A DNA stretch of 64,000 nucleotides from Hydrogenophaga sp. GTDB taxonomy: Bacteria; Pseudomonadota; Gammaproteobacteria; Burkholderiales; Burkholderiaceae_C. The stretch lies in assembly GCA_016790705.1 (NCBI GenBank), contig JAEUOT010000043.1:27346-91345 (forward strand), in the 5' to 3' direction. Below are positions 1,512 through 22,833 of the stretch, one piece after another (positions within the stretch are counted from its first letter, which is position 1; each line of letters begins with the position of its first letter). The notes beneath the pieces are model-generated. The model ran no database searches. It worked only from the letters and a program-made list of their open reading frames with translations, and was not told the DNA's origin. The translations under genes were made by a program, and so were the position numbers.

Positions 1512-2279
1512 ATGAGTGCCATCCTGATGTCGGGTGAGGCCGCCGCATGGCCGAAACAGCCCAAAACGCCCGTGCCGAAGCCTGAAACTCCGTCGCTGCA
1601 GGCCAATCGGGAGTGGGAAATCGACCGCGCGCTGATGCTGGAGCGCTCCGAGAGTCGGGCCTGGGCCGCCGCTGCCGCTGGTCTGGCGATTGGCCTGATC
1701 GGCATCGCGGCGGTCTTCGTGCAGGGGCCGCTGCGCAAGGTGGTGGAAATCCCCATCGTGGTGGACCGGGTGACCGGTGAAACCACCATCCAGCAGCGCC
1801 TGAGCGAAGAAACCATTCCCGCCATGGAGGCGCTGGACAAGCACAACCTGGCCATGTTCGTGCGTTCCCGCGAAGCCTACAGCTGGATGTTCCTGCAGCG
1901 GGACTTTGACCAGGTGGCCCGCATGGCAGTGCCCGCCGTCTTCGCGGAATACAACCGCCAGTTCGAGGGCGATGGGGCATTGCAGAAGAAGGTGGGCTCC
2001 ACCGAAGAATGGCGCATCAACATCGTCGGTGTGCGGCTGCGCGCATCGGGGCGCAGCGGCAACCAGAGCGACGCCACCGTCACCTACGACAAGGTCGTCC
2101 GCATGACTGACCGCAATCTGCCGGATGTGACCACGCGCCACGTGGCCAGCGTGGTCTACCAGTACCAACCCAAGGTGCTGGCCAAAGAGGCGGACCGGCT
2201 GGAGAACCCCTTTGGTTTCGTGGTCACGGCCTACCGGTCCGATCCCGAGATCAACACCCCGACCGGAGCGAAGCCATGA
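1512..2279 (+). CDS. virB8: VirB8 T4SS assembly factor
   Basis: 255-residue bitopic inner-membrane protein that nucleates assembly of the T4SS core. A cytoplasmic N-terminal segment (~55 residues) is followed by one transmembrane helix ('AAAAAGLAIGLIGIAAVFV', ~residues 57-76) and a periplasmic domain. The periplasmic part contains the family's 'SYSWMFLQRDF'-like region (here 'REAYSWMFLQRDFDQVARM') and a final 'NPFGFVVTAYRSDPE', which is typical of VirB8/TrbF proteins. Its stop overlaps the start of virB9 by the ATGA arrangement, so the two are probably translationally coupled. Confidence 0.92.
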   Translation: MSAILMSGEAAAWPKQPKTPVPKPETPSLQANREWEIDRALMLERSESRAWAAAAAGLAIGLIGIAAVFVQGPLRKVVEIPIVVDRVTGETTIQQRLSEETIPAMEALDKHNLAMFVRSREAYSWMFLQRDFDQVARMAVPAVFAEYNRQFEGDGALQKKVGSTEEWRINIVGVRLRASGRSGNQSDATVTYDKVVRMTDRNLPDVTTRHVASVVYQYQPKVLAKEADRLENPFGFVVTAYRSDPEINTPTGAKP

Positions 2280-7681: not shown

Positions 7682-8322
7682 CCGACCAGATTTCTCGCCT
7701 CGTCCTGATCACGATGTACTCCGCAGCGCTCTGCGCCTGCACCTCGCCGCCCAAGCCACCCACCGTTGACGAATCACAGAAGCGGCCCGCCAACGCGCAG
7801 ATGGCCATCGAGCTGCAGGTGTGCAAAAACGATCTGCAGAACACCCGCATCCAGGCCAACGAATCCGACCGCCTCGCCGAAACCACAACCGCCACGCTGG
7901 TGCACATGGCCGCGCGCCAGCATCTGATGGCGTCGATCCAGGAGAAAGCGCAAGCCAACACAGTTCGCATCGTGCACTTCGGGTTCAACAGCACCCGGGT
8001 GTCGATCCCCACCGAGGAAGCTTCGGCTCTGGTGGAAGAGGCCAAGGCCGCGCCGCTCGTGGTGCTGAGGGGTCGCACCGACGGCACCACCGACTCTTCC
8101 ACCGAAAGCCGCATCGCGCAGGCAAGGGCCAACGCCGTGCGTGACTACCTGATCGCTGCCGGCGTGGACCACGCTCGCATCCGCACCACCCACCAGCCCA
8201 GTGGCGACCACCTCGCCGACAACGGTAAACAGCACGGCAGGAATCTCAACCGACGGGTCGAGATCGAGGTGTACCGGGTGCCACCGGTCTCCGTCCAGGC
8301 CCCTGCCCCACCCCAGCCCTGA
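7678..8322 (+). CDS. OmpA-like lipoprotein of the T4SS operon
   Basis: 214-residue predicted lipoprotein: a short signal sequence ends in a lipobox around 'ALCAC' (Cys ~21). A helical/coiled region follows (~40-90), then a C-terminal OmpA/MotB-type peptidoglycan-binding domain with 'VRIVHFGFNSTRV', 'RGRTDGTTDSSTESRIAQARANAV' split over residues ~120-160, and 'NLNRRVEIEVY' at the end. It overlaps virD4 by 4 bases. The likely role is anchoring the secretion apparatus to peptidoglycan, perhaps filling the VirB7 lipoprotein slot. That role is an inference from position; the OmpA domain and lipobox are directly visible. Confidence 0.8.
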   Translation: MTDQISRLVLITMYSAALCACTSPPKPPTVDESQKRPANAQMAIELQVCKNDLQNTRIQANESDRLAETTTATLVHMAARQHLMASIQEKAQANTVRIVHFGFNSTRVSIPTEEASALVEEAKAAPLVVLRGRTDGTTDSSTESRIAQARANAVRDYLIAAGVDHARIRTTHQPSGDHLADNGKQHGRNLNRRVEIEVYRVPPVSVQAPAPPQP

Positions 8323-8363
8323 CACGCCCCTCGTGCTGGAAACAACCACCCAAGGAGACCACC

Positions 8364-9533
8364 ATGGATGACGGAACTTCACCGGCCCGGCGCGTGGATT
8401 TGCCCACGGCAAACACCATTTCCACCCTGGGCGGCACAGTGGAACCAGTGGATCGCGCCGCCATCGCCATCCGGACCTTCCAGACACCCGAGCGTGAGCC
8501 GGGCGAACGGTACGAGTTGCGTGACCCGTTCGCCGAACTCACCTACCGCACGAACCGTTACGAAGACATGGTGGCCAAAGCCGACCAGCTCGGCGCCAAC
8601 CGGTTCGTCGTCGTGGATGTGCGCGGGCAAAAGTCCTTCATTCACAAGATCGATGGCCAATGGCAGCGGGATCAAGCCCCTGATGTCCAGCCCCCAACGA
8701 CCGACCCGCAAGCGAAAACGACAAACCCCGAAACGGTACGCCAGCCCGCTGAGTCGAAGATCATCCCCATGCCCGCCAAAGACAAGGGGGTCAAAGCCCC
8801 GGAAGCTTCCAGCCCGCAAGCCAGCGCCCGAATAGACGCACAGGCCGAGCGTGAAGCCCTCGTCGCACGGCTGGAGTCGGCACTGATGGACCGATACATC
8901 ATCAAGCGCGCCCCGGTCACCCTTGGCGACGTCAGCATTGGCCTCACCGAGTACCGCTTCCGGGGTGACACATCACGCATCGCGTTCACCGAATCCACCT
9001 TCCGGCTGGCCACCGACACAAACAGCCCATCCGTTGCCAGATCTATGGTTGATGTCGCAGAGGCCCGAAACTGGCACTCCCTGCGCATCACAGGCAGCGA
9101 GGATTTCAGGCGCCTCGTCTGGCTGGAGGCCGCTGCACGCGGTGTCAAAACCCTGGGCTACGAGCCCAACCCCGCCGACCTGGATCGGCTCAAGGTGGAA
9201 CGGGAACAACGCCTGAGCAACCGCATTGAACCTGCCCGGGAAGCCTCCACCGCACAGGACGCCAACACCGCTGACAAGCCATCCAGCCGTGGCGGCGGCG
9301 GACGCAAAACCGTTCTGGCAGCCATTGAAGCCATCCTGGTGGCCAATCGGATACCCGAGAAAAGGCGCGAGGCCATCATGGTGGCGGCAGCCGAGAAGCT
9401 TGCCCAGCGCACCCGCGACGGTCTGGTGCACAAGGTCAAGGTCTACGACAAGAGCGCTCCCTCCCAGCGTCCTGTCGTGACTCCTCGGCAAGAACCACAA
9501 CACTCGCGTGAACGGGCGGCTCCCGCACGCTGA
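8364..9533 (+). CDS. LPD7-domain conjugation accessory protein
   Basis: 389-residue protein without signal or membrane segments. The C-terminal half contains the large-polyvalent-protein-associated domain 7 pattern ('VSIGLTEYRFRGDTSRIAFTES', split over residues ~191-212, then 'ARNWHSLRITGSEDFRR' and 'GVKTLGYEPNPADLDRL'). This domain is common in relaxases and in proteins encoded beside T4SS genes. The N-terminal half has a short conserved 'RYELRDPFAELTYRTNRY' segment. An AAGGAG-like site (AAGGAGACC) precedes ATG 8364. Biochemical function is not known; presence in the transfer operon suggests handling of transferred DNA or of a co-transferred protein. Confidence 0.75.
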   Translation: MDDGTSPARRVDLPTANTISTLGGTVEPVDRAAIAIRTFQTPEREPGERYELRDPFAELTYRTNRYEDMVAKADQLGANRFVVVDVRGQKSFIHKIDGQWQRDQAPDVQPPTTDPQAKTTNPETVRQPAESKIIPMPAKDKGVKAPEASSPQASARIDAQAEREALVARLESALMDRYIIKRAPVTLGDVSIGLTEYRFRGDTSRIAFTESTFRLATDTNSPSVARSMVDVAEARNWHSLRITGSEDFRRLVWLEAAARGVKTLGYEPNPADLDRLKVEREQRLSNRIEPAREASTAQDANTADKPSSRGGGGRKTVLAAIEAILVANRIPEKRREAIMVAAAEKLAQRTRDGLVHKVKVYDKSAPSQRPVVTPRQEPQHSRERAAPAR

Positions 9534-10782
9534 GGCTGGCGCGGTGGACGATCCCCCAGAATCAACTTCCACCTACTTGATAGGTGGTCGCAGCTGGGCA
9601 ATGCATACGCCCGGATTCGCCCATGCCATTGCCGAGGCCTACGCGAACCACCAGCGCCCCCGCTGTTTGTGCCGTCCAGATGGCGACGGCATCGAGATGT
9701 ACGTCGCCCGCTTGATGAACGGCTACATCGTCAAGCGCATGCCCAATACCGGGAGTCAGCATGCCACTGCATGCCCTTCCTATGAACTGCCTTCCGATCT
9801 GTCGGGCCTGGGCCAACTGGTCGGTACGGCCATTGTGGAAAACCCCTCGACGGGCGAAACGGCATTGAAGCTCGACTTCCCATTGTCCAAACTGCCCGGC
9901 AGGTCGTCCCAACCACCCGCCGCCAGCGCTTCGCCCAATATCGCATCCCAAGGTCAGAAGCTCAGTCTGCGCGCCCTGCTCCACTACCTGTGGGACCAGG
10001 CCGAACTGACCCACTGGCACCCGGGGTTCGCGGGCAAACGGAACTGGGCCATCGTCCGTCGGCACCTGCTTTCAGCCGCAGCGCACAAGTTCACACATGG
10101 CAGCGAACTGCAGAGCCGCCTGTATGTGCCCGAAGTGTTCTCGGTAGAGCATCGCGCCCCCATCAATGCGCGCCGCCTCGCCGAATGGACCAGCGCCTTG
10201 GCGCACCCCGGCAAACCCAGTCAACTCATGCTGCTGATCGGCGAAGTCAAAGAAATCGTGCCATCGCGGTACGGTTTCAGAGCGGTCATCAAACATATCC
10301 CCGATCAAGCCTTCGCCATCGACGAGCGCTTGTTCCGCCAGCTGGAGCGCCGATTTGCAGGCGAGCTGGCACTTTGGGGAGCCTTCGATTCCATCCATCT
10401 GGTCATGGTCGGGACCTTCTGCGTCAGCTATTCAGGGCTGCCCACCATCGACTCCCTCTCGCTGGTCACCTTCACCCCGGAATGGATTCCGGTGGACAGC
10501 CCGCAGGAGGCCCACCTCGTCCGATCCCTGGTCAGCTGCCGACGAAGCTTTGTGAAGACCCTTCGGTACAACCTGTGCGCGGGCACCGACATGGCCAGCG
10601 CCGTGCTCACCGACCTGGGCGAACCGGTCGAGCTGTACATCGCAACGGAAAGCGACTCCGGCGAAGAAAACCCGGGTTTGCCTTCTCAAGATCGTGATCT
10701 GCCCGTCCAGCGGTGGGAGTGGCACCCATCCCGACAGACCCTTCCCCCGTTCCCGACCGTCAAAAGGGAAGCCCTCGCGTGA
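9508..10782 (+). CDS. DUF1173 family protein
   Basis: Up to 424 residues, a DUF1173-type protein found in ICEs and conjugative plasmids. The diagnostic N-terminal block is visible: 'RPRCLCRPDGDGIEMYVARL' followed by 'YIVKRMPNTGSQHATACPSY', a Cys-rich pair of motifs (CxC ... C) that may bind metal. No membrane segments are seen. The start is uncertain: GTG 9508 overlaps the previous gene by 26 bases, GTG ~9544 or ATG 9601 are also possible, and none has a strong ribosome-binding site. Function unknown; position suggests an accessory role in conjugation. The 180 bases after it hold no gene. Confidence 0.75.
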   Translation: MNGRLPHAEAGAVDDPPESTSTYLIGGRSWAMHTPGFAHAIAEAYANHQRPRCLCRPDGDGIEMYVARLMNGYIVKRMPNTGSQHATACPSYELPSDLSGLGQLVGTAIVENPSTGETALKLDFPLSKLPGRSSQPPAASASPNIASQGQKLSLRALLHYLWDQAELTHWHPGFAGKRNWAIVRRHLLSAAAHKFTHGSELQSRLYVPEVFSVEHRAPINARRLAEWTSALAHPGKPSQLMLLIGEVKEIVPSRYGFRAVIKHIPDQAFAIDERLFRQLERRFAGELALWGAFDSIHLVMVGTFCVSYSGLPTIDSLSLVTFTPEWIPVDSPQEAHLVRSLVSCRRSFVKTLRYNLCAGTDMASAVLTDLGEPVELYIATESDSGEENPGLPSQDRDLPVQRWEWHPSRQTLPPFPTVKREALA

Positions 10783-10962
10783 TCGGACGCTGCGCAATCG
10801 AATCGAGCGGCTTCGCCTTGGAACAGCCCCAAATGAATCCTGCTATCCCGGCGAATTCACACCGCGCCCACCAGCCCAAAGCGCCCAGGCCGAGTCCACT
10901 AAACTCAGCCGGAAACTGTTTCGCAACGTCTGCAGATTCCACCAACAAAACGACGGCTGAAC

Positions 10963-13900
10963 ATGCAAGGGAGCAAGCGTTCCAATTTCGATCTGCTCAA
11001 ACCCTACGAGCAGCAGCTCTGGCGCCTCGGCGCCTTGGCGGAGCGGTACTTTTCAGACGATCCCAACACCAGTCTGCTCAAGCTTCGCCAGCTCGCCGAA
11101 CTGCTGACCCAATCGGTCGCCGCCCGGGTCGGTCTGTACACCTCAGCCGAAGAGTCCCAATACGACCTGATCCGTCGCCTCCAGGCTGAGGGTTTCCTCC
11201 CTCGTGAAATCAAACAGCTGCTGGACCAGATTCGCGTGGCGGGCAATGCCGCCAACCACGCACTTGAAGGCAATCACGCCAAAGCTCTGGCGTCACTTCG
11301 ATTCGCCTGGCAATTGGTACTCTGGTTTCACCGGACATTCAAAGAACCTGACTTCCGTTCCGGCCCGTTTCTGCCACCAACCCCTCCCGAAGACGAAAGC
11401 GCCGAACTCAGGACCCAGCTGGAAGGTCTTCGCCAGGCGGTGGTCGAATACCAATCCAGGCACGAGCAGGTTCAGAACCAGCTGACCCAGGCCCAGTCAC
11501 AACTCTCCACCCTGGCAGAAGAGCGCACGGTGTGGGAACAGGTCGCCACCGAGGCCGAAGAAGCCAAGGCACAACTCGGCCAGCGCCTTGAAGCACTGCA
11601 GATTGAAGTCAAGGCAGCGCCTCAATTCAACAAGACCCAGCTGCTTTCGTTTGCCACCGCCGCCGCCTCGCAGGTGGTGCTGGACGAATCCCAGACCCGG
11701 CGCCTGATCGACGAACAGCTGCGCCAGGCTGGCTGGGAAGCCGACACCGAAGTCCTGCGCTACAGCAAAGGCACCCGTCCGGAGCGAGGCCGCAACATCG
11801 CCATCGCCGAATGGCCCTGCGAGGGTTACTCGGCCGACTACGTGCTGTTCCAAGGCCTCACCCCCCTGGCGGTGGTCGAAGCCAAACGCGAGGCTAAAGA
11901 CGTATCAGCCGCCTTGCAGCAAAGCAAGCGCTACAGCCGCACCTTCGGCGCCAGCTCGGAGACCTTTCTCCACGAAGAAAACTGGGGCGAACGTGGTGAG
12001 TTCCGCATCCCCTTTGTGTTTGCCACCAACGGGCGCCCTTACCTGCGCCAGCTGGCCACCAAAAGTGGTATCTGGTTCTGCGACCTGCGCCGCCCGGAGA
12101 ACCTCGCCCATGCGCTGGACGGCTGGTATTCGCCCCAGGGTCTTCAGGTCCTGCTCACCCGCGACGAGGCCCGCGCGGACCAGGAATTGAGCAACACTGC
12201 CTTCAACTACGGTTTCCCGCTGCGCCACTACCAGCAAACCGCCATCCAGGAAACCGAGCGCCGCATCAGCCAGGGCCAGCGCGAAATTCTGCTGGCCATG
12301 GCCACCGGCACCGGCAAAACCAAAACCTGCGTCGCGCTCATCTACCGCCTGCTCAAGGCCAAGCGCTTCCGCCGCATCCTGTTCCTGGTGGATCGTTCAG
12401 CGCTGGGCATCCAGGCCGCCAACGCCTTCAAAGACACCCGCATGGAACGCCTGCAGACCTTTGCAGACGTGTTCGGCATCAAGGAACTGGACGAGCAGAT
12501 GCCCGACGAAGACACGGGCGTACAGGTCGCCACGGTGCAGGGCATGATGAAACGGGTGCTGTTTCCGGCCGATGGCGTGGCGCCGCCCACCGTGGACCAG
12601 TTCGATTGCATCGTCATCGACGAATGCCACCGCGGCTACACGCTGGACCGCGAAATGTCCGACACCGAAATGGCCTTTCGCGGGTTTGACGACTACATCT
12701 CCAAATACCGCCGGGTGCTCGACTATTTCGACGCCACCAAGATCGGCCTCACCGCCACCCCGGCGCTGCACACCACCGAAATCTTTGGCGCGCCGGTCTA
12801 TTCGTACACCTACCGCGAGGCCGTGGTCGATGGCTTCCTGGTGGACTACGAGCCGCCCATCCAGCTCTACACCGAGCTGTCCACCCATGGCATGACCTGG
12901 CACGTGGGCGAAGACGTCAAGGTCTACGACGTCACCAAAAATCAGATCGACTTGTTCAAGGCGCCCGACGAGATCAAGCTCCAGGTCGAAGACTTCAACC
13001 GCAAGGTCATCACCCGCCCCTTCAACGAAGCGGTGTGCCAGTACCTGGCCCAGGAGCTGGACCCCAGCGGGCGCCGCAAGACGCTCATCTTCTGCGTCAG
13101 CAGCAGCCACGCCGATCTGGTGGTTGAAGTCCTCAAGAAGGCCTTCGAAACCCAATACGGTTCGGTGGAGGACGATGCGGTCATCAAGATCACGGGCGAC
13201 GCCGACAAACCCCTGGAACTCATCCGCCGCTACAAAAACGAGCGCCTGCCCAACGTGGCGGTCACGGTGGACCTGCTCACCACCGGCATCGACGTGCCGG
13301 AAATATGCAACCTGGTCTTCCTGCGCCAGGTCAACAGCCGCATCCTGTTTGACCAGATGCTTGGCCGCGCCACCCGCCTGTGCGATTTTGACGGCGAAGC
13401 CAAAGACAACTTCCGGGTCATCGACGCCGTCCGCGTGTTCGAGAACATCGGGAACATGACCGCCATGAAACCCGTGGTGGTCAACCCCAAGCTCAGTTTC
13501 TCTCATCTGGAAGGCGAACTGCTTACCGTCGCCGACGATGCGGCCCGCGAGCTGGTGCGCGACCAGTTCCTGGCCAAGTTCCAGGTCAAAAAGCGCCACC
13601 TCCAAGGCAAAGACGCCCAGGACTTCGAGACCAAGTCCGGCATGTCGCCCGACGACTTCGTCAAAAGGGTCCGTGCCCTACCCTTGAACGAACTGGCCAA
13701 GTGGTTTGCCCAGCACCCTGACCTGGGCGAAATCCTCGACCGCAAGCACGAAGGCAACGGCCAGGGCATGTACGTCTCGGACCACCCGGACCAGCTGAAG
13801 AACGTCGAACGCGGGTACGGCAAGGCCACCCGACCCGAGGACTACCTCAAGGAATTCAAGGCCTTCATCGAGAGCCACGGCAACGAACTGCCGGCGCTAC

Positions 13901-14373
13901 TGACCGTGCTCACCCGCCCGCGCGACCTCACCCGCCAGCAGCTCAAGGAACTGGTGCTGGCGCTCGACAAAGCCGGCTACACCGAGGCCCGCCTCGCCAC
14001 CGCCTGGCGCGAACTCAGCAACCAGGACATAGCCGCCCGCATCATTGGCTATATTCGCCAGGCCGCCGTGGGGGATGCCCTGCTCCCCTACGCCGAGCGT
14101 GTGGACCACGCCCTGCAAAACCTGCTGGCGAAACCACCCGGCGGCGTTGCCTGGACCAACCCGCAGCGCGACTGGCTCAAACGCATCGCAGCGCAAACCA
14201 AAGCCAACCTGCTGGTGGACCGCGCCGCCCTCGACGACCCCGACCTCATCTTCAAACGCGAAGGCGGCGGCTTCAACCGCCTCGACAAAATCTTCAATGG
14301 CCAGCTCCAGCCCGTGCTGGAAGCCTTTAACGATGCGCTGTGGGCGCTGCCGCCCCAGTCTGCACAACGCTGA
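10963..14373 (+). CDS. hsdR: Type I restriction endonuclease subunit HsdR
   Basis: 1136-residue motor and nuclease subunit of a type I restriction-modification system. Residues ~1-140 form a DUF4145-like helical N-terminal domain; ~150-220 are coiled coil. A PD-(D/E)xK nuclease site is visible as D292 and E306-A-K308. The superfamily 2 translocase domains follow with Walker A 'ATGTGKT' (~447-453), a DEAD-box-like 'DECHRG' (~553), 'LTATPA', and helicase motif VI region 'QMLGRATRLCD'. It is separated from the tra operon by 180 bases, so it has its own promoter or reads through. hsdM follows after 11 bases. Confidence 0.95.
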   Translation: MQGSKRSNFDLLKPYEQQLWRLGALAERYFSDDPNTSLLKLRQLAELLTQSVAARVGLYTSAEESQYDLIRRLQAEGFLPREIKQLLDQIRVAGNAANHALEGNHAKALASLRFAWQLVLWFHRTFKEPDFRSGPFLPPTPPEDESAELRTQLEGLRQAVVEYQSRHEQVQNQLTQAQSQLSTLAEERTVWEQVATEAEEAKAQLGQRLEALQIEVKAAPQFNKTQLLSFATAAASQVVLDESQTRRLIDEQLRQAGWEADTEVLRYSKGTRPERGRNIAIAEWPCEGYSADYVLFQGLTPLAVVEAKREAKDVSAALQQSKRYSRTFGASSETFLHEENWGERGEFRIPFVFATNGRPYLRQLATKSGIWFCDLRRPENLAHALDGWYSPQGLQVLLTRDEARADQELSNTAFNYGFPLRHYQQTAIQETERRISQGQREILLAMATGTGKTKTCVALIYRLLKAKRFRRILFLVDRSALGIQAANAFKDTRMERLQTFADVFGIKELDEQMPDEDTGVQVATVQGMMKRVLFPADGVAPPTVDQFDCIVIDECHRGYTLDREMSDTEMAFRGFDDYISKYRRVLDYFDATKIGLTATPALHTTEIFGAPVYSYTYREAVVDGFLVDYEPPIQLYTELSTHGMTWHVGEDVKVYDVTKNQIDLFKAPDEIKLQVEDFNRKVITRPFNEAVCQYLAQELDPSGRRKTLIFCVSSSHADLVVEVLKKAFETQYGSVEDDAVIKITGDADKPLELIRRYKNERLPNVAVTVDLLTTGIDVPEICNLVFLRQVNSRILFDQMLGRATRLCDFDGEAKDNFRVIDAVRVFENIGNMTAMKPVVVNPKLSFSHLEGELLTVADDAARELVRDQFLAKFQVKKRHLQGKDAQDFETKSGMSPDDFVKRVRALPLNELAKWFAQHPDLGEILDRKHEGNGQGMYVSDHPDQLKNVERGYGKATRPEDYLKEFKAFIESHGNELPALLTVLTRPRDLTRQQLKELVLALDKAGYTEARLATAWRELSNQDIAARIIGYIRQAAVGDALLPYAERVDHALQNLLAKPPGGVAWTNPQRDWLKRIAAQTKANLLVDRAALDDPDLIFKREGGGFNRLDKIFNGQLQPVLEAFNDALWALPPQSAQR

Positions 14374-14384
14374 AACCGAATCCC

Positions 14385-15962
14385 ATGTCCAACCCCAATG
14401 CCGCGCTCGACATCGGCGCCAAGCTCTGGTCGCTTTGCAACGTGCTGCGCGACGACGGTGTCACCTACCACCAGTACCTGAGCGAACTCACCTACCTGCT
14501 GTTCCTGAAAATGATGCAGGAGACCGGGCAGGAAGAACGCCTGACCGTGTTCAAGTCCCCCAAGAAGGGCGAGCCCAAGCTGCTGCAGCCCGGCGTGCGC
14601 TGGGCCGACCTGATCAGCGCCTCCGCGCCCGACCGGCTCGACACCTACAAGGAAATGCTGCTGGACTACGGCCTGCACGGCCAGGGCGCTGTGCAGGCCA
14701 TTTACGCCAACGCCAACACCTTCATCACCAAGCCGGCCACGCTGAGCAAGCTCGTCACTGAAATTGATGCGCTCGACTGGTACAGCGTGCAGCGCGACGA
14801 CCTGGGCGACCTGTACGAAAACCTGCTGGAACGCAACGCCACCGAGAAGAAAAGCGGCGCCGGCCAGTACTTCACGCCCCGCCACCTGATCGACAGCATC
14901 GTCACCGTGCTCAACCCCAAGCTGGGTGACGTGATCCAGGATCCAGCGGCCGGCACATGCGGCTTCCTCATCGCGGCCAACAACCACCTGCGCAAACACA
15001 ACGACTTCAACAGCCTCAAGGAAGAGGCCCAGCGCCGCTACCGCCACGACACCTTCTACGGCATGGAGCTGGTGCAAGACACCCACCGCCTGGCGCTGAT
15101 GAACATGCTGCTGCACGGCATTGAAGGCGGCGTGGACTACGGCGACACCCTGAGCGAGGACTACCGCAAGCTCCCGCCCGCCACGCTGATCCTCTCCAAC
15201 CCGCCCTTTGGCACCAAAAAAGGCGGCGGCCTGCCCACCCGCACCGACCTCACGTACATCACCAGCAACAAACAGTTCGCCTTCCTGCAGCACATCTACC
15301 GCAGCCTCAAGCCGGGTGGCCGTGCCGCCGTGGTGCTGCCCGACAACGTGCTCTTTGAAAGCAACGTGGGCACCGACATCCGCCGCGATCTGATGGAGAA
15401 GTGCAACCTCCACACCATCCTGCGCCTGCCCACCGGCATCTTTTACGCGCAGGGCGTCAAGACCAACGTGCTCTTCTTCACCAAGGGCGAGAAGGACAAG
15501 GGCAACACCAAAGAGGTCTGGGTGTACGACATGCGCGCCAACATGCCCCAGTTTGGCAAGCGCACCCCCTTCACGCGCGACTACTTCCGCACCCCGGCAG
15601 ACGCGCCCGCCAGCCAGCCGCGCGACAAATTTGAAGACGTGTTCGGTGACGACCCGAAAGGCGGCCCCGCCGCACTGGCCAAACGCGTGGACACCGGTGA
15701 AACCGGCCGCTGGCGCAAATTCACCCGCGAACAGATTGCCGCCCGTGGCGACAACCTCGACATCGCCTGGCTCAAGGACGACAGTGCCGAAACCGCCGAA
15801 GCCCAGCGCGACGACCCCGCCCTGGTGGCCCGGCTGCTGCAGCGCGAGCTGGGCGGCGCCATGGCCGAACTGCGCGCCCTGCTCGAAGAACTGGGCGAAG
15901 ACCCCGACGCCGCGCTGGACGACCTGCTGATCGACGAAACCGGGCAAGAGGCCCAGGCATGA
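14385..15962 (+). CDS. hsdM: Type I DNA methyltransferase subunit HsdM
   Basis: 525-residue N6-adenine methyltransferase subunit. It has an N-terminal helical HsdM_N domain, the SAM-binding motif 'DPAAGTCGFL' (D ~186) and the catalytic 'NPPFG' (N ~272). The start is ATG 14385, 11 bases after the hsdR stop; an upstream in-frame start would overlap hsdR and lies ahead of the conserved N terminus. The C terminus is acidic ('LGEDPDAALDDLLIDE'). It overlaps the following nuclease gene by ATGA. It modifies the site recognised by HsdS and forms part of the R2M2S complex. Confidence 0.95.
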   Translation: MSNPNAALDIGAKLWSLCNVLRDDGVTYHQYLSELTYLLFLKMMQETGQEERLTVFKSPKKGEPKLLQPGVRWADLISASAPDRLDTYKEMLLDYGLHGQGAVQAIYANANTFITKPATLSKLVTEIDALDWYSVQRDDLGDLYENLLERNATEKKSGAGQYFTPRHLIDSIVTVLNPKLGDVIQDPAAGTCGFLIAANNHLRKHNDFNSLKEEAQRRYRHDTFYGMELVQDTHRLALMNMLLHGIEGGVDYGDTLSEDYRKLPPATLILSNPPFGTKKGGGLPTRTDLTYITSNKQFAFLQHIYRSLKPGGRAAVVLPDNVLFESNVGTDIRRDLMEKCNLHTILRLPTGIFYAQGVKTNVLFFTKGEKDKGNTKEVWVYDMRANMPQFGKRTPFTRDYFRTPADAPASQPRDKFEDVFGDDPKGGPAALAKRVDTGETGRWRKFTREQIAARGDNLDIAWLKDDSAETAEAQRDDPALVARLLQRELGGAMAELRALLEELGEDPDAALDDLLIDETGQEAQA

Positions 15963-16990
15963 GCCAGCTCACGCCCACCCCGGTCGCCAGCCTGCACGCA
16001 GAGCTGCGCGCCCTCATCGCCAGCAGCCGCCAGCGGCTGGCGACCGCCGTCAACGCCGAACTGACCCGCCTGTACTGGACAGTGGGCCAGCGCCTGAACG
16101 CGGAAGTGTTGGGCGGCGAACGTGCCGGCTACGGCGCCCAGCTGCTCGACCAGCTGGGCAAGCAATTGTCCAGTGAGTTCGGTCGCGGCTTTGAATCCCG
16201 CAACCTGCGCCGCATGGTGAAGTTTGCCGAGGCGTTCCCCAGCGCCGAGATTGTGTCGACACTGTCGGCAAAATTAAGCTGGAGCCACCTGGTGGCCATC
16301 GTGGCCCTCAAAACCCCGGAAGCCCGCCAGTTCTACGCCCAACATGCCGCGCAAGACGGCTGGAGCGTGCGCGAGCTGAGCCACCAGATCGAGCGCAAAG
16401 CCTTCGAGCGCACGGAGATCGCCACCACCCAGGCGCCCGCGCTGCCGGCCACGCCGCTCCAGGTCTTCAAAGACCCCTACTTCCTGGACTTTCTGGGCTT
16501 GCGCCAGGGCCACGACGAAGCCGACCTTGAAGCCGCCATCCTGCGCCAGCTCGAAGCCTTCATCCTGGAGCTCGGCCGGGGCTTTGCGTTTGTCGAACGG
16601 CAAAAGCGCATGGTCATCGACGGAGAAGATTTCTACCTGGACCTGCTGTTCTTCCACCGCCGCCTGCGCCGCCTGGTCGCCATCGAACTCAAGCTCGGCC
16701 GCTTCAAGGCTGCCCACAAGGGCCAGATGGAGCTGTACCTGAAGTGGCTGGACAAACACGAACGCCAGGCTGGCGAAGAAGCGCCCATCGGCCTCATCCT
16801 CTGCGCCGAATCCAGCCGCGAACAGGTTGAACTTCTGCAGATGCATAAGGACGGCATCACCGTGGCCGAGTACTGGACCGAGCTGCCGCCCAAGGCCGAA
16901 CTGGAACAGCGGTTGCACGAGGCACTGGTAGAGGCGCGTGAGCGCCTAGCGCGGCGTGGGTTGCTGTTGGAAGGTGGCAGCGATGAATGA
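15959..16990 (+). CDS. YhcG/DUF1016-type PD-(D/E)xK nuclease
   Basis: 343-residue protein of the YhcG (DUF1016) family. The N-terminal domain (~10-150) is helical, with 'RLYWTVGQRLN', 'SSEFGRGFESRNLRRMVKFA' and 'LSWSHLVAIV', typical of the DUF1016 N domain. The C-terminal domain (~170-320) has a PD-(D/E)xK nuclease arrangement: D228 in 'DFYLDLLFF' and E243-L-K245 in 'AIELKLGRF', then 'GQMELYLKWL' and 'PIGLILCA'. It sits inside the hsd operon between hsdM and hsdS, with 4- and 8-base overlaps, so it is co-translated with the type I enzyme. DUF1016 genes are often seen in or beside type I systems and defence islands. Whether it joins the complex or acts alone is unknown. Confidence 0.88.
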   Translation: MSQLTPTPVASLHAELRALIASSRQRLATAVNAELTRLYWTVGQRLNAEVLGGERAGYGAQLLDQLGKQLSSEFGRGFESRNLRRMVKFAEAFPSAEIVSTLSAKLSWSHLVAIVALKTPEARQFYAQHAAQDGWSVRELSHQIERKAFERTEIATTQAPALPATPLQVFKDPYFLDFLGLRQGHDEADLEAAILRQLEAFILELGRGFAFVERQKRMVIDGEDFYLDLLFFHRRLRRLVAIELKLGRFKAAHKGQMELYLKWLDKHERQAGEEAPIGLILCAESSREQVELLQMHKDGITVAEYWTELPPKAELEQRLHEALVEARERLARRGLLLEGGSDE

Positions 16991-18845
16991 ACTGCCGGAA
17001 AGCTGGACCACTGCGCCGCTGTCAGCCATTTCAACCGACGTCACTCAGCGCGTGCCGGGAGAGACTGAGACTTTCACCTACATCGACATCGGGTCCGTAA
17101 ACCGGGACACGAAAGCCATCACGACACCACAGGTGCTGCTTGGCAAAGATGCCCCGAGCAGGGCCAGAAAACAGGTCGCAAAGGGTGACACCCTGGTATC
17201 GATGACACGGCCCAATTTGAATGCGGTGGCATTGGTGCCACCCTCGTTGGATGGGCAAATCGCATCAACGGGCTTCGACGTTTTGAGGCCGCTCGACGGT
17301 GTCGATCCACGGTGGCTGGCATATCTGGTCCGGACAGAACAATTTGTGTCCGCCATGTCTGAGCTTGTGCAGGGTGCGCTTTACCCTGCTGTGAGAACAA
17401 AGGATGTCCGCGCCTTTGTTGCACCTATAGCCCCGTCTGCAGAGCAATCCCGCATTGCCGACCAACTCGATACCCTGCTGGCCCGGATCAACGCCTGCCA
17501 TCACCGTCTCGACAAAATCCCCGCACTGCTCAAGCGATTTCGGAAGGCGGTGCTGGATGCAGCCACAACGGGTGCATTGATCGAGGACTGGCCAACGTCT
17601 GATGCGACGCGGTGGCCTATGGTCTCTCTTGGTGCGCATGCGAGCGACTTTTCGTATGGCACGGCTGCCAAATCCGAGAAGTCGGGTCGCGTGCCTGTAC
17701 TGCGCATGGGGAACATCCAAGGATGTCGCCTGGACTGGGCGGATCTTGTCTACACCTCCAACGAAGCAGAAATCAAAAAGTACGAACTCAAAAAGGGTGA
17801 CGTCCTGTTCAACCGGACTAACAGTCCGGAGCTGGTGGGAAAGACGGCGATTTACCAGGGTGAACAACCTGCCATCTATGCTGGCTACCTCATCCGCGTA
17901 CGCTGCAACGAAGAGTTGCTGCCCGAGTATTTGAACTACTGCTTGGGAAGCACTGCGGGACGTAACTTCTGCTGGGCGGAGAAGTCAGATGGTGTGAGCC
18001 AGTCCAACATCAACGCCAAGAAGCTTCGAGCCTTCAAGTTCAATCTGCCGAAGCCAGAAGAACAGTGCGAGATTGTCCGGCGCGCCGAATCACTCTTCCG
18101 ACTCGCTGACAGTATTGAAGCTCACTACCAAGCGATGTGCGTCCATTCACAACGTCTGGCTCCACAAGCGTTGGCCAAAGCCTTTCGTGGCGAGTTGGTG
18201 CAGCAAAACCCGCAAGACGAACCGGCCAGCATCCTGTTGCAGCGCATCGCCGGAAAACAGCCCGAAAAGCTGAAAACCACGCGCGGGCGACCACGGGTCA
18301 AAAAGCCGGAAACCGCAGAAGTCTTGCCGGTCGCCCAGCCCGACTGGTCCACCTTGCCTGCTGGCGCATGGGCAGCACAGGTGCCCGCCGACGAACACAC
18401 GGCCACCGCCCAGCTCACCGCAGTGCTCAAGGCCTGGAACAAGCCCATGCCCCAGGACACGGCGCGCCTGGCCACCCTGTTATGCCTGCAGCCACGGCTC
18501 TTGACCGCTGCGCTGCCGGCAGACCACGCTGCGCAATGGCGCCGATTGGTGGGCGATGCGGCGGCCCCCTTGCCTGCACAGGTGGTCACCCTGCAACCCG
18601 CCTTCAACACACCCTGGCGCAACGCCATCAGCAAGATGCGGGCGCGCGAGGACCTGGTCGAATCCGGCCCCGGCGCGCAAGGCACTTGGGCGCTTGGGCC
18701 TGATGCAGCGCGGATAGACACCGCGGGTTGGCCCGATGGCCGTGCAGGCTGGGTGGTGCACTACTTGCAAATGCACGGTGTGGAGGCGGTGTTGCCGACG
18801 TTGGCCACCGAGGTACAGGAGTTCGTTCATGCGCGTGCAGCCTGA
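16983..18845 (+). CDS. hsdS: Type I specificity subunit HsdS with C-terminal extension
   Basis: 620-residue DNA-recognition subunit. Two target-recognition domains are visible: the first ~residues 1-150, the second ~200-385, each followed by the conserved helical spacer (first copy 'LDTLLARINACHHRLDKIP', second copy 'AESLFRLADSIEAHY'). The usual HsdS length is ~400-460. Here a basic linker ('RGRPRVKKPE', ~433-443) leads into an extra ~170-residue C-terminal domain that does not look like a TRD. The start ATG 16983 overlaps the DUF1016 stop; an upstream in-frame start would overlap more. The 3' end overlaps the downstream ATPase gene by 17 bases, which suggests translational coupling to it. 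Confidence 0.9.
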   Translation: MNELPESWTTAPLSAISTDVTQRVPGETETFTYIDIGSVNRDTKAITTPQVLLGKDAPSRARKQVAKGDTLVSMTRPNLNAVALVPPSLDGQIASTGFDVLRPLDGVDPRWLAYLVRTEQFVSAMSELVQGALYPAVRTKDVRAFVAPIAPSAEQSRIADQLDTLLARINACHHRLDKIPALLKRFRKAVLDAATTGALIEDWPTSDATRWPMVSLGAHASDFSYGTAAKSEKSGRVPVLRMGNIQGCRLDWADLVYTSNEAEIKKYELKKGDVLFNRTNSPELVGKTAIYQGEQPAIYAGYLIRVRCNEELLPEYLNYCLGSTAGRNFCWAEKSDGVSQSNINAKKLRAFKFNLPKPEEQCEIVRRAESLFRLADSIEAHYQAMCVHSQRLAPQALAKAFRGELVQQNPQDEPASILLQRIAGKQPEKLKTTRGRPRVKKPETAEVLPVAQPDWSTLPAGAWAAQVPADEHTATAQLTAVLKAWNKPMPQDTARLATLLCLQPRLLTAALPADHAAQWRRLVGDAAAPLPAQVVTLQPAFNTPWRNAISKMRAREDLVESGPGAQGTWALGPDAARIDTAGWPDGRAGWVVHYLQMHGVEAVLPTLATEVQEFVHARAA

Positions 18846-20802
18846 GTTGTTTGAACCCATGCCACTGTCCGTCCCGCTGCCCCCCGGTGGTGAACAACCA
18901 GCTCTCTGGGTGCGCCGGCTCACGATCTGGAAGGAACCGGGCAACCTGGTGCGCAGCATTGAACTGCGGCCCGGCCTGAACTTCATCTGGTCGCCCGACC
19001 CGGCCGACATGGGGAACCAGAGCGAAGCGGGTGAACTGGGCCACGGGGCCGGCAAGACGCTGTTTTGCCGGTTGCTGCGTTACTGCCTGGGTGAAGACCG
19101 TTTTGCGCCAGAGGATCAGAGACTCAGCATCGGCACGGCCTTTCTGAACGGCTGGGTGTCGGCCGAAGTGGTGCTGAATGGCTCGCCTTGGGCGGTGCTG
19201 CGTCCGCTGGGTGTGGGGCGCGGCCACTTTGCGGTGCAAGGCGTGATGCCAGAGCAACTGTTCGAGCGCTTGAACGAACCCACCGGCATGGCACCGCTGA
19301 TCGATGCCATCGAACAGCACGTGATCACGAAGAACGTCACCGCCTTGATGCCCGTGGACCAGTTGCACGATGCCTGGCGCGTGGCGCTGGCTTGGCTGAC
19401 GCGGGACCAGGAATGTCGGTTCGACCATGTGCTGGACTGGCGCGCGGCGGAGTCCAACTCGGAGTCGCCGACCCGCTCCATGTCGCGCGGCCGTCTGCAG
19501 GACTCGATGCGGGCGCTGATCGCCGCCATCTCGCCCGACGAGATGCAGTTGCAAGCCGAAGCCAATGCGCAGGGCGAAGAACTCAAGACCCAACAGAACG
19601 AGGCCGCCCGCTGGCAATGGTCCTGTGAGCACCTGCGCACCGATGTGTTGCGGTCGTTGGGACTGACGTCAACGGCGGTACCCGAAGGTCGCCTGGGTTT
19701 GGAAACACTCCGCCTGGTCGCACGCCAGAAGCTGGCGCAAGCAGCGAAAACGGACGATTCCGTGGACGTGTCCAACCTGGAGGCTTTGCGGCAACGTGCA
19801 CGCGAAGCGGTCAAGGTAGTCACGGATCTGGAGCAGCAACTGGCGGTGGCAAACAGCAACCTGCCACTGCACAAGAGCCTGCTGAAAACCCTGCAAGCGG
19901 AACTGCCGTCCACCTCGGTGCAGGTACGGGACGCCGAGGTGCCCTCCTGCCAGATTTGCGAAGTCCCCATTGACCGCGCATTGGCCGAAGGCTGCAAGCT
20001 CTCACACAAACTGCCTGACCTCGACAAATTGCGCCAGCGGTACGAGGTGTTGCAGAAGCAGATCACAGAGAAGTCGGCCGAAGTTGACGCCACTCAGGCG
20101 AACATCAACAGTACTAGGCAACAGCTACCCGCAGCGCGCACGACGAGTGACACGTTGCAGCAGGCCGTGAAGAAGGCAGAGAGGCTGAGCGACAGCCGCT
20201 CGACAGCCTGGAGCCAGGGGAAAAAGAACCTGGACGACATCCAGCGCCTGGAGCACGACTGGGCATCGTGGGAGCAGGCGCAGGAAAAGGTCGCGAAGCT
20301 TCAGGAGCAGATCGATAACAAGCGCGAGCGCCTGGCAGCGTTCCGCGACCAGCAGTTCGAGGTGTTCTCTGGTCTGTCCATCTACTTCAACGCGATCATC
20401 AGGGCAGCTGTGGGGCCTACCGCTTCCGGCAAGGTCACGCTCGACGGCAACGGCATGAAGCTGGCGGTTCAGCTGGGCGGTGAGCGTTCCACCGCGGCGA
20501 TCGAGTCACTGAAAGTGATTGCCTTTGACCTGGCGGTGATGTGCATGAGCATGCAGGGGACCACCCGCCTTCCAGCGTTTCTGCTGCACGACAGCCCCCG
20601 GGAAGCCGATCTGGGCCTGAGCGTCTACCACCGCCTGTTCGATGTGGTGAACGGGCTGGAGGGCACCTCGACCTCGGCTTTTCAGTACATCGTCACGACC
20701 ACCACGCAACCCCCACCCGCATTCCAGCAGAGACCGTGGCTGCGCGAGGTGCTGCGCGGTGCTCCGCCGCAAGAGCGCCTTCTGCGCTGCGATCTGCCTT
20801 GA
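18829..20802 (+). CDS. SMC/Rad50-like ATPase with central CxxC hook, linked to the type I system
   Basis: 657-residue protein with an ABC/SMC-type split ATPase plan. Walker A 'GHGAGKT' lies at ~71-77 after an N-terminal beta region. Long coiled-coil segments run ~225-365 and ~395-510, rich in Gln/Glu/Lys/Leu. At the turn between them is 'CQIC' (C374, C377) with another Cys ~12 residues on, like the zinc hook of Rad50. The C-terminal lobe has a signature-like 'LGGERSTAAIESLK' (~548-561) and a Walker B-like 'FLLHDSPRE' (~584-592). Start ATG 18829 lies inside hsdS; a longer frame begins at 18736 but its extra residues look like non-coding translation. Not a named family to me. Its place as the last gene of the hsd operon suggests a role in the defence response, for example DNA-end or phage sensing (inference). 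Confidence 0.8.
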   Translation: MRVQPELFEPMPLSVPLPPGGEQPALWVRRLTIWKEPGNLVRSIELRPGLNFIWSPDPADMGNQSEAGELGHGAGKTLFCRLLRYCLGEDRFAPEDQRLSIGTAFLNGWVSAEVVLNGSPWAVLRPLGVGRGHFAVQGVMPEQLFERLNEPTGMAPLIDAIEQHVITKNVTALMPVDQLHDAWRVALAWLTRDQECRFDHVLDWRAAESNSESPTRSMSRGRLQDSMRALIAAISPDEMQLQAEANAQGEELKTQQNEAARWQWSCEHLRTDVLRSLGLTSTAVPEGRLGLETLRLVARQKLAQAAKTDDSVDVSNLEALRQRAREAVKVVTDLEQQLAVANSNLPLHKSLLKTLQAELPSTSVQVRDAEVPSCQICEVPIDRALAEGCKLSHKLPDLDKLRQRYEVLQKQITEKSAEVDATQANINSTRQQLPAARTTSDTLQQAVKKAERLSDSRSTAWSQGKKNLDDIQRLEHDWASWEQAQEKVAKLQEQIDNKRERLAAFRDQQFEVFSGLSIYFNAIIRAAVGPTASGKVTLDGNGMKLAVQLGGERSTAAIESLKVIAFDLAVMCMSMQGTTRLPAFLLHDSPREADLGLSVYHRLFDVVNGLEGTSTSAFQYIVTTTTQPPPAFQQRPWLREVLRGAPPQERLLRCDLP

Positions 20803-20834: not shown

Positions 20835-21935
20835 TCAGCGGGTCGGATGAATGTCGGTTGACGGTGTGGGTTGCTGGCGAGTTTGCCGTTGATCGGTTTG
20901 TGGCGTCGGGTGTTGCCTAGTCTCTTGCGGCCTCTCGGGTTTCGTCTGCGCATCGGCCGCCTTGTTTGAATCGGACACGCCCCTCACGAAGCTGGCGATG
21001 TGTTTCGCCAGTTGCCTGTCCGTCGCCTGCCCAGAGCCGGCGAGGGCCAGACCGATCTGCACCCAGGCATCCACCGCATCAGCCCTTGAGGCATGCAGCT
21101 TCGGCCCTTCGGTTCCGCTGGATCGGACCTTGCGCAAGCGTCCATCCTCTTGTGCCTTCAGTCGCCATAACTGATCGGGTTGGTGGAACTTGGCACGAGT
21201 GACTTGCCGTGTGGCCTCCGCCTCGACGCCGTAGCCTCGCAACTTTTCCGCGAAGGTTTCGCGCCAGCGGTGCAGGTCGTTCTTGCGTGGGTTGAGGCGC
21301 TTGCCCAGCCTGGACACGGCGCGCAAGCTGATGTGCACGTGCGGGTTGGCCTGGTGGTCGTGCAGCACCATGACGTATTTGTGGTCGGCCAGTTCGGCCT
21401 GCGCAAACTCCCGCGCGGCGCGTTGCACGATCAGCGGATCGGTGCCGCGCGGCATCGATAGCATGATGTTGAAGGCCTCGCGCCGCTGACCTGGCTCAGC
21501 GTCCTCAGGGATGCGCGCGCCGCCCAGGCGCCACTCATCGGCCAGGTGGTGCAGGCTGTCTTTGCCTTGCATGGTCTCACCGCGCTGGTCTTCGATCTCC
21601 AGCCGTCCGTTTTTGCTGATGTACCGAAAGTGCGCCGCAATGGCGGCCATGCTCCGCCCTCCCCCGGTGACCTTGACCATGACCTGAGGGGCACGCCGAA
21701 CGACGGTGGCTTCGATGCGCTGGCGGATGGCGTTGGCACGATGGTGTGCGCCCGAAGCGCCCAGCTTGAGCTGGGGACGAACCTGGACGATGCGGTTGCC
21801 CGGGTAGAACAGGCGGTCGCCCCAAGTGATGAGGATGCCGTCAACGTCGGGGGCATGGGGAGCGCTGGTCAGGGTCGAGGGCATGGACGAAGTGCCAGAC
21901 AAGGCAGCGCTTGGGCCGCCGGTGGGCTTTTTCAT
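20835..21935 (-). CDS. VirD2/MobP-like relaxase
   Basis: 366-residue conjugative relaxase that would nick oriT and stay bound to the transferred strand. The clearest motif is the histidine triad region 'VMVLHDHQANPHVHISLR' (H-x-H ... H-x-H), used for metal binding in MOB_P/VirD2 relaxases. The region before it ('HFRYISKNGRLEIED') is also typical. A candidate catalytic Tyr is in 'HFRYISK'. The C-terminal ~60 residues are Gln/Thr/Pro-rich and probably flexible, serving as a secretion signal. ATG 21935 has AAGGAG at good spacing inside the preceding gene, and the two genes overlap as ATGA. Convergent with the hsd-linked ATPase gene. Confidence 0.88.
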   Translation of the reverse strand: MKKPTGGPSAALSGTSSMPSTLTSAPHAPDVDGILITWGDRLFYPGNRIVQVRPQLKLGASGAHHRANAIRQRIEATVVRRAPQVMVKVTGGGRSMAAIAAHFRYISKNGRLEIEDQRGETMQGKDSLHHLADEWRLGGARIPEDAEPGQRREAFNIMLSMPRGTDPLIVQRAAREFAQAELADHKYVMVLHDHQANPHVHISLRAVSRLGKRLNPRKNDLHRWRETFAEKLRGYGVEAEATRQVTRAKFHQPDQLWRLKAQEDGRLRKVRSSGTEGPKLHASRADAVDAWVQIGLALAGSGQATDRQLAKHIASFVRGVSDSNKAADAQTKPERPQETRQHPTPQTDQRQTRQQPTPSTDIHPTR

Positions 21936-22528
21936 GGTCGGCTCCTTAGGGTGCGCGCCTGACTTCGTAGGGCTGTTGGTGAAGCGATAGGTCTGCGTGG
22001 CTGCAGGTCGGCCAAGGCACGCGAGACATGGTCAAGGTGGCGGCGCACGTCACGGGCCAGCGTTTCGAGCATGCCGACGTAGGGGCGGATGGGCTCCACA
22101 TCGCCACGGCGCAACAACGCGTTCAGCTGGTAGAGGCGGTGACAGAAGTGGGCTAGTTCGTCCGTGGATGCAGTGAGCGCCTGCAAGGTCTGTGCGTGCC
22201 CTCTTCCGTCCAGCACTGCCGGCACGCCCGCCACCAGGGCAGCCACGTAGTCACCGTTGGCCATGCCCGCCCGCTTCGCGGCCTGCAGCGTCGCGGCGGC
22301 GTCTTCAGACCGCATGCGCAGGCACAGGCGTGTGCGAACGGCAGGATCGGTCTGGACAGGTGTGCGACAGGCCTCGGCGTTCTGCAGCGCAGGAAGCCCC
22401 AGCGCATCGACCAGCGCCTGGCGCACCAGTTGGGAAGGCGAGTGGCCGACGGCCTGTGCGCGCTCCATCAGCGTGGCTTTGAGGCCATGCAGGTCCACGC
22501 TGATGCGGTCACGTGACGAGGGTTCCAT
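21932..22528 (-). CDS. MobC-like relaxosome accessory protein
   Basis: 198-residue basic protein just upstream of and overlapping the relaxase gene. The N terminus ('SSRDRISVDLHGLKATLMERA') resembles the ribbon-helix-helix DNA-binding region of plasmid mobilisation accessory proteins, and a second similar stretch starts near residue 75 ('RTRLCLRMRSEDAAATLQAA'). The C-terminal half is helical ('YQLNALLRRGDVEPIRPYV'), as in MobC proteins. The start is chosen at 22528 because AGGAG lies 7 bases upstream; a start at 22576 would add 16 residues. It probably binds the oriT region next to it and helps the relaxase nick. The family call is from context plus fold, not from a strong motif. Confidence 0.7.
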   Translation of the reverse strand: MEPSSRDRISVDLHGLKATLMERAQAVGHSPSQLVRQALVDALGLPALQNAEACRTPVQTDPAVRTRLCLRMRSEDAAATLQAAKRAGMANGDYVAALVAGVPAVLDGRGHAQTLQALTASTDELAHFCHRLYQLNALLRRGDVEPIRPYVGMLETLARDVRRHLDHVSRALADLQPRRPIASPTALRSQARTLRSRP

Positions 22529-22833
22529 AACGAGTCTCCTGACGACGATTCCCCCCTGGGTGAGCGTGTCAGACAACCGGCGCCACCGCGCCTATCTCTG
22601 CACTCACCCATGAACCCAGTATTGGTCTGAATCGAGGCTCTGATGCCGCTGGATTTGGGTCCGAATCCAGCAGGCGAACAGGCGCCAGGCGGATTGAAGA
22701 TGAGCACGTACCGATCAGCACCGCTCAGGACGTGAGCAGACAGCGCGAGCAGTGATCAGAAGGCAAACAACCACTGCACTAACCGATCAGCAATTGACGA
22801 ACAACCGGCCAACGCCTGACCAGAAACTGAACG
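22529..22833. other. Candidate oriT / relaxosome intergenic region
   Basis: Non-coding 305 bases between the divergent mobilisation genes (minus) and stbABC (plus), the usual place for oriT. It contains a perfect 8-bp inverted repeat GCTGGATT (22648-22655) / AATCCAGC (22664-22671) with an 8-base loop. An exact 11-bp direct repeat ACCGATCAGCA occurs at 22710-22720 and 22782-22792, and a further GATCAG at 22754-22759. The direct repeats lie nearest stbA and may be binding sites for the StbA-like protein. The nic site cannot be named from sequence alone. Confidence 0.5.

Follow-up and report, generated by a model that had tools for sequence, protein, structure and literature searches.

A C-terminal tail of HsdS shares its history with a neighbouring LmuB-like ATPase in a type I restriction cassette of Hydrogenophaga sp.

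The specificity subunit HsdS of a type I restriction-modification (R-M) cassette from Hydrogenophaga sp. ends in a tail that shares its history with the SMC-like ATPase encoded next to it, and sequence comparison gives good support to the conclusion that the two behave as one unit. This tail, termed the adaptor below, matched no Pfam family and is predicted from modelling to adopt a winged-helix fold. The cassette is probably a type I R-M enzyme onto which a Lamassu-type sensor has been grafted via HsdS, where it would gate or boost restriction. It lies in a window of 64,000 nucleotides, the whole stretch of DNA that was analysed, and its features are the following.

10963..14373, plus strand: hsdR, type I restriction subunit, with a DUF4145-like N-terminal part, HSDR_N nuclease, ResIII helicase and EcoEI_R_C
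14385..15962, plus strand: hsdM, N6-adenine methyltransferase subunit, ATG start (N6_Mtase, E 7e-74)
15959..16990, plus strand: DUF1016/YhcG-type PD-(D/E)xK nuclease, ATG start (DUF1016_N, E 3e-46; YhcG_C nuclease, E 1e-47; PADLOC PDC-S02)
16983..18845, plus strand: hsdS, 620 residues, ATG start (Methylase_S, E 6e-15)
16983..18302, plus strand: hsdS head, roughly residues 1-440, the part with homology to ordinary HsdS
18345..18842, plus strand: adaptor, the C-terminal 166 residues of HsdS, with a winged-helix fold predicted
18829..20802, plus strand: LmuB-like (DUF2326/ABC-3C-related) SMC-type ATPase, 657 aa, ATG start
19039..19059, plus strand: ATPase Walker A, residues 71-77 (GHGAGKT); G73, G75 and K76 in 79/79
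19948..20007, plus strand: zinc knuckle or hook at the coiled-coil apex, residues 374-393; C374 in 79/79, C377 in 78/79, C389 in 75/79, H393 in 59/79
20578..20610, plus strand: Walker B followed by HDSPREAD, residues 584-594; D588 in 79/79, S589 in 78/79, E592 in 77/79

Assignment to type I R-M follows from family-level sequence matches of HsdR (equivalog NF008521, 1519.5 bits), HsdM and HsdS, and the nuclease carries both domains of the DUF1016/YhcG family. The initial annotation's five genes, gene order and overlaps of 4 nt (hsdM/DUF1016), 8 nt (DUF1016/hsdS) and 17 nt (hsdS/ATPase) were all confirmed from the sequence, with a gap of 11 nt between hsdR and hsdM. The overlaps suggest a single transcription unit; a check of this unit found no sigma-70-type promoter-like site, where shuffling gives an expectation of 1.1, and 10 terminator-like sites, where 12.0 are expected. 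The window around the cassette holds conjugation genes (VirB8, CagX, TrbI, VirB11- and VirD4-type, relaxase). When the cassette flanks were searched against plasmids, coverage was so low (4-6% and 5-15% for the best 8 of 44 and of 27 records) that no empty site could be drawn.

The relatives of the ATPase reveal where the adaptor belongs. The survey took the 80 best-scoring of 226 relatives from genome contigs (79 distinct loci) plus one viral contig, 80 loci in all, so that remote relatives are under-represented. A DrmMI/MmeI-like methyltransferase match lies upstream of the ATPase in 66/80 loci, and within the stretch examined 55 of these 66 have both helicases, five have one and six have none. 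Five loci are type I, one of them a fragment in which hsdS is incomplete; one is type III and eight could not be assigned. The ATPase is thus encoded away from hsd genes in 67 of the 72 assignable loci, an outcome that the initial annotation had named as refuting its proposal, and it is not a part specific to type I systems; the same distribution exposes the adaptor-ATPase module. What survives of the proposed expanded type I defence is the expanded system and its conserved order, which recurs more than chance would give: a search with the ATPase as query recovered the five-gene order in all four relatives with the whole locus on the contig (L021, L022, L025 and L059), with ATPases 61-90% identical to that of the window and the 17-nt hsdS/ATPase overlap in each, although frames are broken in DUF1016 (L025 and L059) and hsdS (L059). 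A claim of novelty based on gene order alone was abandoned, as M-DUF1016-S and S-ATPase pairs are each found on their own at other loci.

The adaptor forms the C-terminus of 81 of the 85 proteins whose genes lie immediately ahead of an ATPase relative, its carriers being mostly DISARM/MmeI-like methyltransferases and once a type III Res. Among eight further ATPase genomes it was undetectable in four, namely all the remote ones. Its distances correlate with those of the ATPase at r=0.92, versus 0.50 with the methyltransferase to which it is fused, where head distances are coarse because the target-recognition parts vary. These correlations and the trees used 79 of 88 loci, after removal of fragments and loci with no upstream gene (L006, L028, L071, L075, L080, L083, L088 and L089) and of L037, from the same genome as G312 and taken as a duplicate. 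The trees were quick ones, with SH-aLRT support only, and several branches, that of L100 among them, were flagged as long; the adaptor tree recovered the type I clade (99) and did not settle its neighbour, so that this tree alone does not show the donor methyltransferase branch.

Adaptor and ATPase occur together on three chassis, namely type I HsdS, DISARM/MmeI-like methyltransferase and, on one contig, type III Res. Since the same kind of tail-plus-ATPase pair is found on two quite different restriction-type systems, the pair looks like a portable add-on and not a part of restriction itself. The initial annotation had proposed an expanded complex; this proposal gains a covalent feature that it had missed, the shared C-terminal adaptor that ties the ATPase to HsdS. 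The helicase-methyltransferase loci resemble DISARM, Druantia and Dpd in their mixed PADLOC matches (DruE, DpdE/DrmD, DrmMI), which is why they are placed under no single name; they have the same module, attached where the methyltransferase gene ends, but are without HsdR/M/S. The ABC ATPase classification of Krishnan et al. (2020) may already list such loci, and no claim is made that the group is undescribed.

Type I loci that lack the ATPase provide a second line of evidence. Controls comprised nine loci (L103-L111), of which L111, where the contig ends inside hsdS, is uninformative on the tail, and six plasmid loci (L112-L117) hand-picked from 47 HsdR records, L116 having an annotation gap ahead of hsdS. 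In the nearest type I relative without an LmuB-like ATPase, HsdM is 83% and HsdR 68% identical, DUF1016 is missing, and HsdS homology stops where the tail of the window's HsdS begins; the HsdS of L103 is 44% identical over residues 2-440 with nothing aligned past 440. Sister type I loci without the tail are also without the ATPase. These observations, the presence of the tail in 81/85 proteins, the 17-nt overlap with the upstream gene, possible in 54/79 loci, and the correlated distances already contradict a reading in which unrelated defence genes were packed into a mobile element and the common tail is a passive linker; the window's position among conjugation genes would suit that reading, which is nevertheless highly improbable.

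The nearest relative has instead another hsdS-linked ATPase, of the family TIGR04435 ('restriction system-associated AAA family ATPase'). L103 and L117, in which neither adaptor nor LmuB-like ATPase was found, score 445.5 and 402.6 bits against this model (cut-off 300 bits) and resemble the window in having an ATPase gene after hsdS in one row. Their ATPases nonetheless belong to another family, the window's ATPase giving no match to TIGR04435 at E 0.001.

The DUF1016 nuclease looks like a separate accessory. Its proposed tie to hsd genes probably does not hold, as only two of six plasmid DUF1016 loci examined (431 records matched) are type I, and those two were partly picked for a visible methyltransferase feature. 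It occurs in 1/66 methyltransferase-type ATPase loci within the stretch examined, and a PDB search with it at E 0.1 was negative. Type I systems on Aeromonas caviae and Acaryochloris plasmids share the M-DUF1016-S arrangement with 4-nt overlaps, but place hsdR last and have no adjoining ATPase annotated within 5 kb.

The ATPase itself matches PADLOC LmuB (E 2e-18) and, weakly, DUF2326 (E 3e-5; 24.2 bits, under the Pfam cut-off of 28.7), which places it among the LmuB-like SMC ATPases of Lamassu/ABC-3C systems; its predicted model also resembles LmuB. A PDB search with the sequence alone gave two weak coiled-coil matches, and a profile gave seven weak matches, with LmuB chains at E 0.006. Phage records held no match to the ATPase of L100. 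Of the Rad50-like, hook-bearing ATPase initially described, the SMC/Rad50 head and coiled coil stand; the hook is retained only as a zinc knuckle or hook, since the apex CxxC is joined by a third Cys and usually a His and may be a zinc knuckle instead of a Rad50-type hook. Ser589 presumably occupies the position of the usual catalytic Glu.

By the model and motif comparisons, together with a review (PMC10586767), Lamassu/ABC-3C systems (LmuA, LmuC, LmuB) share with the cassette the ATPase fold, its size of about 650 aa, an apex CxxC, an unusual Walker B and a small component directly upstream of the ATPase. In the window, however, no separate small LmuC precedes the ATPase, the place of the middle component being taken by the tail fused to the R-M subunit HsdS. 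The best fold match of the modelled adaptor is probably LmuC, a weak match that is suggestive only. The cassette row of hsdR, hsdM, DUF1016, hsdS and ATPase has no LmuA gene, and no PADLOC LmuA model was among the matches listed for its proteins, the list stopping at the best 25 for three of them. In listings and abstract openings of the open-licence literature, a Lamassu-type adaptor fused to HsdS did not come up.

The proposed module would thus consist of an LmuB-like SMC/Rad50-type ATPase and a winged-helix adaptor, probably LmuC-like, that forms the C-terminal tail of HsdS. The adaptor would dock an ATPase dimer on the specificity subunit; by analogy with Rad50, and as Lamassu is thought to do, the ATPase would recognise incoming DNA by its ends or by unusual structures. 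Sensing would then gate or boost the nuclease HsdR, and possibly DUF1016 as a second effector, in the role that LmuA has in Lamassu itself. Support for the module is good, whereas its docking and its function are inferred.

Docking on HsdS would also suit a guard, in which the ATPase triggers a second, abortive defence that is silenced by the restriction enzyme and freed when the enzyme is attacked, as with PrrC and type Ic enzymes. In the available part of PMC2610378, PrrC is physically associated with a type Ic enzyme, while the ATPase-nuclease RloC, which has a zinc hook, shows linkage to type I/III loci in 8/73 cases; both are ABC ATPases coupled to restriction enzymes, but they bear an anticodon nuclease, and no HsdS docking tail is described for them there. 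The RloC triad R-x3-E-x36-52-H, as given in that part (PMC2610378), is absent from the last 260 residues of the window's ATPase and occurs in 18/79 relatives, as chance may give. Pfam finds no toxin domain in the ATPase, and DUF1016 would need to be the effector despite its rarity in methyltransferase-type loci; such a guard is unlikely. A purely mechanical helper that tethers DNA and aids target search, turnover or post-cleavage enzyme removal without sensing would fit the SMC/Rad50 head and coiled coil and the fact that the tail carriers HsdS, methyltransferase and Res are all parts of DNA-scanning enzymes. This is rather unlikely too, given that Ser replaces the usual Walker B Glu in 78/79, which argues against a fast motor, and that LmuB generally has Glu to Gln at the same place (PMC10586767, available part).

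Lamassu-type sensors and R-M systems are currently treated as separate defences. The shared tail suggests that a Lamassu-type sensor is physically built into R-M systems of three types, and the 166-residue tail is a small, testable part for asking what the ATPase contributes to restriction. It also warns annotators that long C-terminal tails of HsdS or methyltransferases can belong to the machine of the next gene. In type I systems, the hsdS tail and its ATPase may form a cassette that can be swapped, with at least two kinds in use, LmuB-like and TIGR04435. There is an even chance that the adaptor-ATPase pair acts as a portable 'co-processor', which would move as one DNA cassette, plug into a DNA-reading or scanning subunit (HsdS, MmeI/DrmMI-like methyltransferase or type III Res) and add structure sensing to sequence- or methylation-based discrimination of self from non-self.

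The five genes that the initial annotation read as one expanded type I cassette (hsdR-hsdM-DUF1016-hsdS-ATPase) were confirmed from the sequence, as were their order and their overlaps of 4 nt (hsdM/DUF1016), 8 nt (DUF1016/hsdS) and 17 nt (hsdS/ATPase), and the family names assigned to the products agree with family matches. Each assignment below rests on sequence plus family match.

10963-14373, + strand, hsdR
14385-15962, + strand, hsdM
15959-16990, + strand, DUF1016/YhcG nuclease
16983-18845, + strand, hsdS
18829-20802, + strand, ATPase (LmuB-like, Lamassu-type)

The flanking stretches (1512-9533 and 20835-22576) encode VirB8, CagX, TrbI, T2SSE-type, VirD4/TraG-type, OmpA-like and LPD7 proteins and a MobA/VirD2-type relaxase. 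Since the cassette sits between conjugation genes (VirB8, CagX, TrbI, VirB11-type, VirD4-type; DUF1173) and an opposite-strand relaxase, it is probably carried on a plasmid or integrative element.

Relatives of the ATPase were collected by scanning genome_contigs once with an eight-ATPase alignment. Of 226 relatives, the 80 with the best scores were kept, representing 79 loci, among which that of Hydrogenophaga sp. NFH-34 is nearest to the window's by ATPase (90% identity); one more contig came from a viral scan, giving 80 loci. The complete type I cassette was recovered in unchanged order in four of these, L021 (Hydrogenophaga), L022 (Methylibium), L025 (Ideonella) and L059 (Pseudorhodoferax), and the contig of a fifth type I relative, L023, begins within hsdS. 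The DUF1016 frame is interrupted in L025 and L059, two of the five type I cassettes, and hsdS is also interrupted in L059; DUF1016 may therefore be dispensable to the cassette, or these drafts may contain errors. The idea that the ATPase is specific to type I systems fared poorly, as most loci lie elsewhere: 66 of the 80 have a DrmMI/MmeI-like methyltransferase match upstream, against five of type I, with one of type III and eight without assignment. Within the 66, examples of which were examined on two plasmids with PADLOC and Pfam, 55 have DrmD-like and DruE-like helicases, five DrmD-like only and six neither within the available stretch, and 48 have an HNH-type match. Among eight plasmid records matched over at least 80% of ATPase length (L004 and L039 being one record found twice), seven have the methyltransferase upstream and L006 only an adaptor remnant. 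In two loci (L028:3312-4271, L078:12079-13044), one of methyltransferase type and the other unassigned, a DUF1016 gene beside an HNH match is found downstream of the ATPase. A Priestia plasmid (L007:10020-13978) carries a stand-alone DUF2326 ATPase that aligns end to end with the window-type family (hhalign, E 2e-30) and follows a 165-aa gene with no family name, a candidate ABC-3C system.

What the initial annotation lacks is the HsdS tail, an adaptor domain that most proteins encoded just ahead of the ATPase share. The window HsdS is 620 residues long, and its likeness to ordinary HsdS stops near residue 440. Of the 84 other proteins whose genes immediately precede an ATPase relative, 78 were matched (E <=3.1e-4) by the last 166 residues of the window HsdS in single-sequence BLAST, and a profile search found the adaptor in 81 of 85 (88 loci overall, the upstream ORF not being found in three). 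The four misses are L089, whose contig starts inside the ATPase, L006, where a 75-residue remnant adjoins it, and L080 and L088, in which no adaptor was found by the profile. On the viral contig L100 (IMG/VR), a type III Res protein, with domains ResIII and RE_endonuc, carries the adaptor and is encoded behind a Mod-type methylase gene; besides Mod, Res and the ATPase, this locus (4170-11992) includes DUF4391 and an SNF2-type helicase, and the contig also has terminase-like and recombinase-like ORFs by eye. The window, its four complete type I relatives and numerous methyltransferase loci belong to the 54 of 79 loci in which carrier and ATPase genes could overlap by 17 nt; the others have overlaps of 11, 14, 23 or 29 nt, or no nearby start. 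In L033 (1794-10017) the methyltransferase gene is apparently split by ~3 kb with opposite-strand ORFs, perhaps an insertion, and the adaptor and ATPase frames are intact.

ATPase and adaptor distances correlate closely (r=0.92, 79 loci). For the 58 loci in which helicase and methyltransferase are both full-length, the correlations fell into two blocks, ATPase with adaptor (0.92) and DrmD with the methyltransferase head (0.87), and pairs across the blocks gave 0.50-0.65; partial correlations given the other two were 0.88 for ATPase-adaptor, 0.82 for DrmD-head, 0.32 for ATPase-DrmD and 0.19 for adaptor-head. These values indicate that the adaptor mainly follows the history of the ATPase, despite its fusion to the methyltransferase. 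Joint transfer of adjoining DNA and physical contact account for the correlation equally, and the pair is one module either way. With midpoint rooting, the ATPase tree unites the type I members in one clade (SH-aLRT 100) beside Paraburkholderia/Caballeronia plasmids (99), within methyltransferase-linked members, and L100 groups with four Acidobacteriota methyltransferase-linked members (SH-aLRT 100; long-branch warnings). The simplest reading of the tree is that the module moved once to type I and once to type III.

Type I loci lacking the ATPase offer a natural comparison. HsdR was matched (E <=1e-180) in nine of 399 genomes of the order besides the window's, and no adaptor, window-type ATPase or DUF1016 was found in these nine loci as fetched (L111 ends inside hsdS); adaptor and window-type ATPase were likewise absent from six plasmid type I loci examined. 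The closest locus, L103 (HsdM 83%, HsdR 68% identical), has an HsdS that aligns with window residues 2-440 and nothing beyond, and is followed by a TIGR04435 "restriction system-associated" ATPase (445.5 bits), a known hsdS-linked family that the window ATPase does not match. Between two closely similar restriction enzymes, tail and ATPase thus change jointly and appear to have been exchanged together, in one direction or the other. A TIGR04435-type ATPase also follows hsdS on a Sphingobium plasmid. In L103 (6592-9926) and L117 (15537-18718), the HsdS tails preceding the TIGR04435 ATPases resemble each other (by eye, weakly by BLAST) and not the window's; they are possibly a second tail-ATPase cassette family.

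The module is rare. The ATPase was searched for in three overlapping sets of 399, 385 and 369 genomes and the adaptor in a set of 398; each search returned 2 to 6 genomes, mostly with the window's own among them, and together they gave eight further ATPase genomes. The adaptor lies at the methyltransferase end in four (G312, G736, G1042, G1121); in the other four (G056, G223, G237, G286), whose ATPases are remoter (26-29% identity), a long gene occupies the carrier's place and the profile detected no adaptor. An overly narrow profile could explain these misses, as could an adaptor specific to the nearer ATPase branch.

What the comparisons show is a module with its fused tail. We lean toward a type I enzyme bearing a grafted Lamassu-type sensor module that gates or boosts restriction, a preference slightly lowered because half of the further ATPase genomes have no detectable adaptor. 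The tail would tether a dimeric ATPase to the core of methyltransferase and specificity subunits, and the ATPase would perceive DNA ends or structures and thereby alter nuclease behavior. PrrC and RloC are known ABC ATPases tied to restriction, and a guard or abortive arrangement like that of PrrC (PMC2610378) is an unlikely alternative; that the ATPase is a mechanical helper seems slightly less likely still. Type I restriction-modification and Lamassu are each a known relative of one element of the sensor-bearing enzyme favored here, and DUF1016 between M and S is known elsewhere in type I loci. The open-licence literature searched yielded no account of a Lamassu-type adaptor fused to restriction-modification subunits of three types, and within that literature this fusion would be the new part of an assembly of individually known elements.
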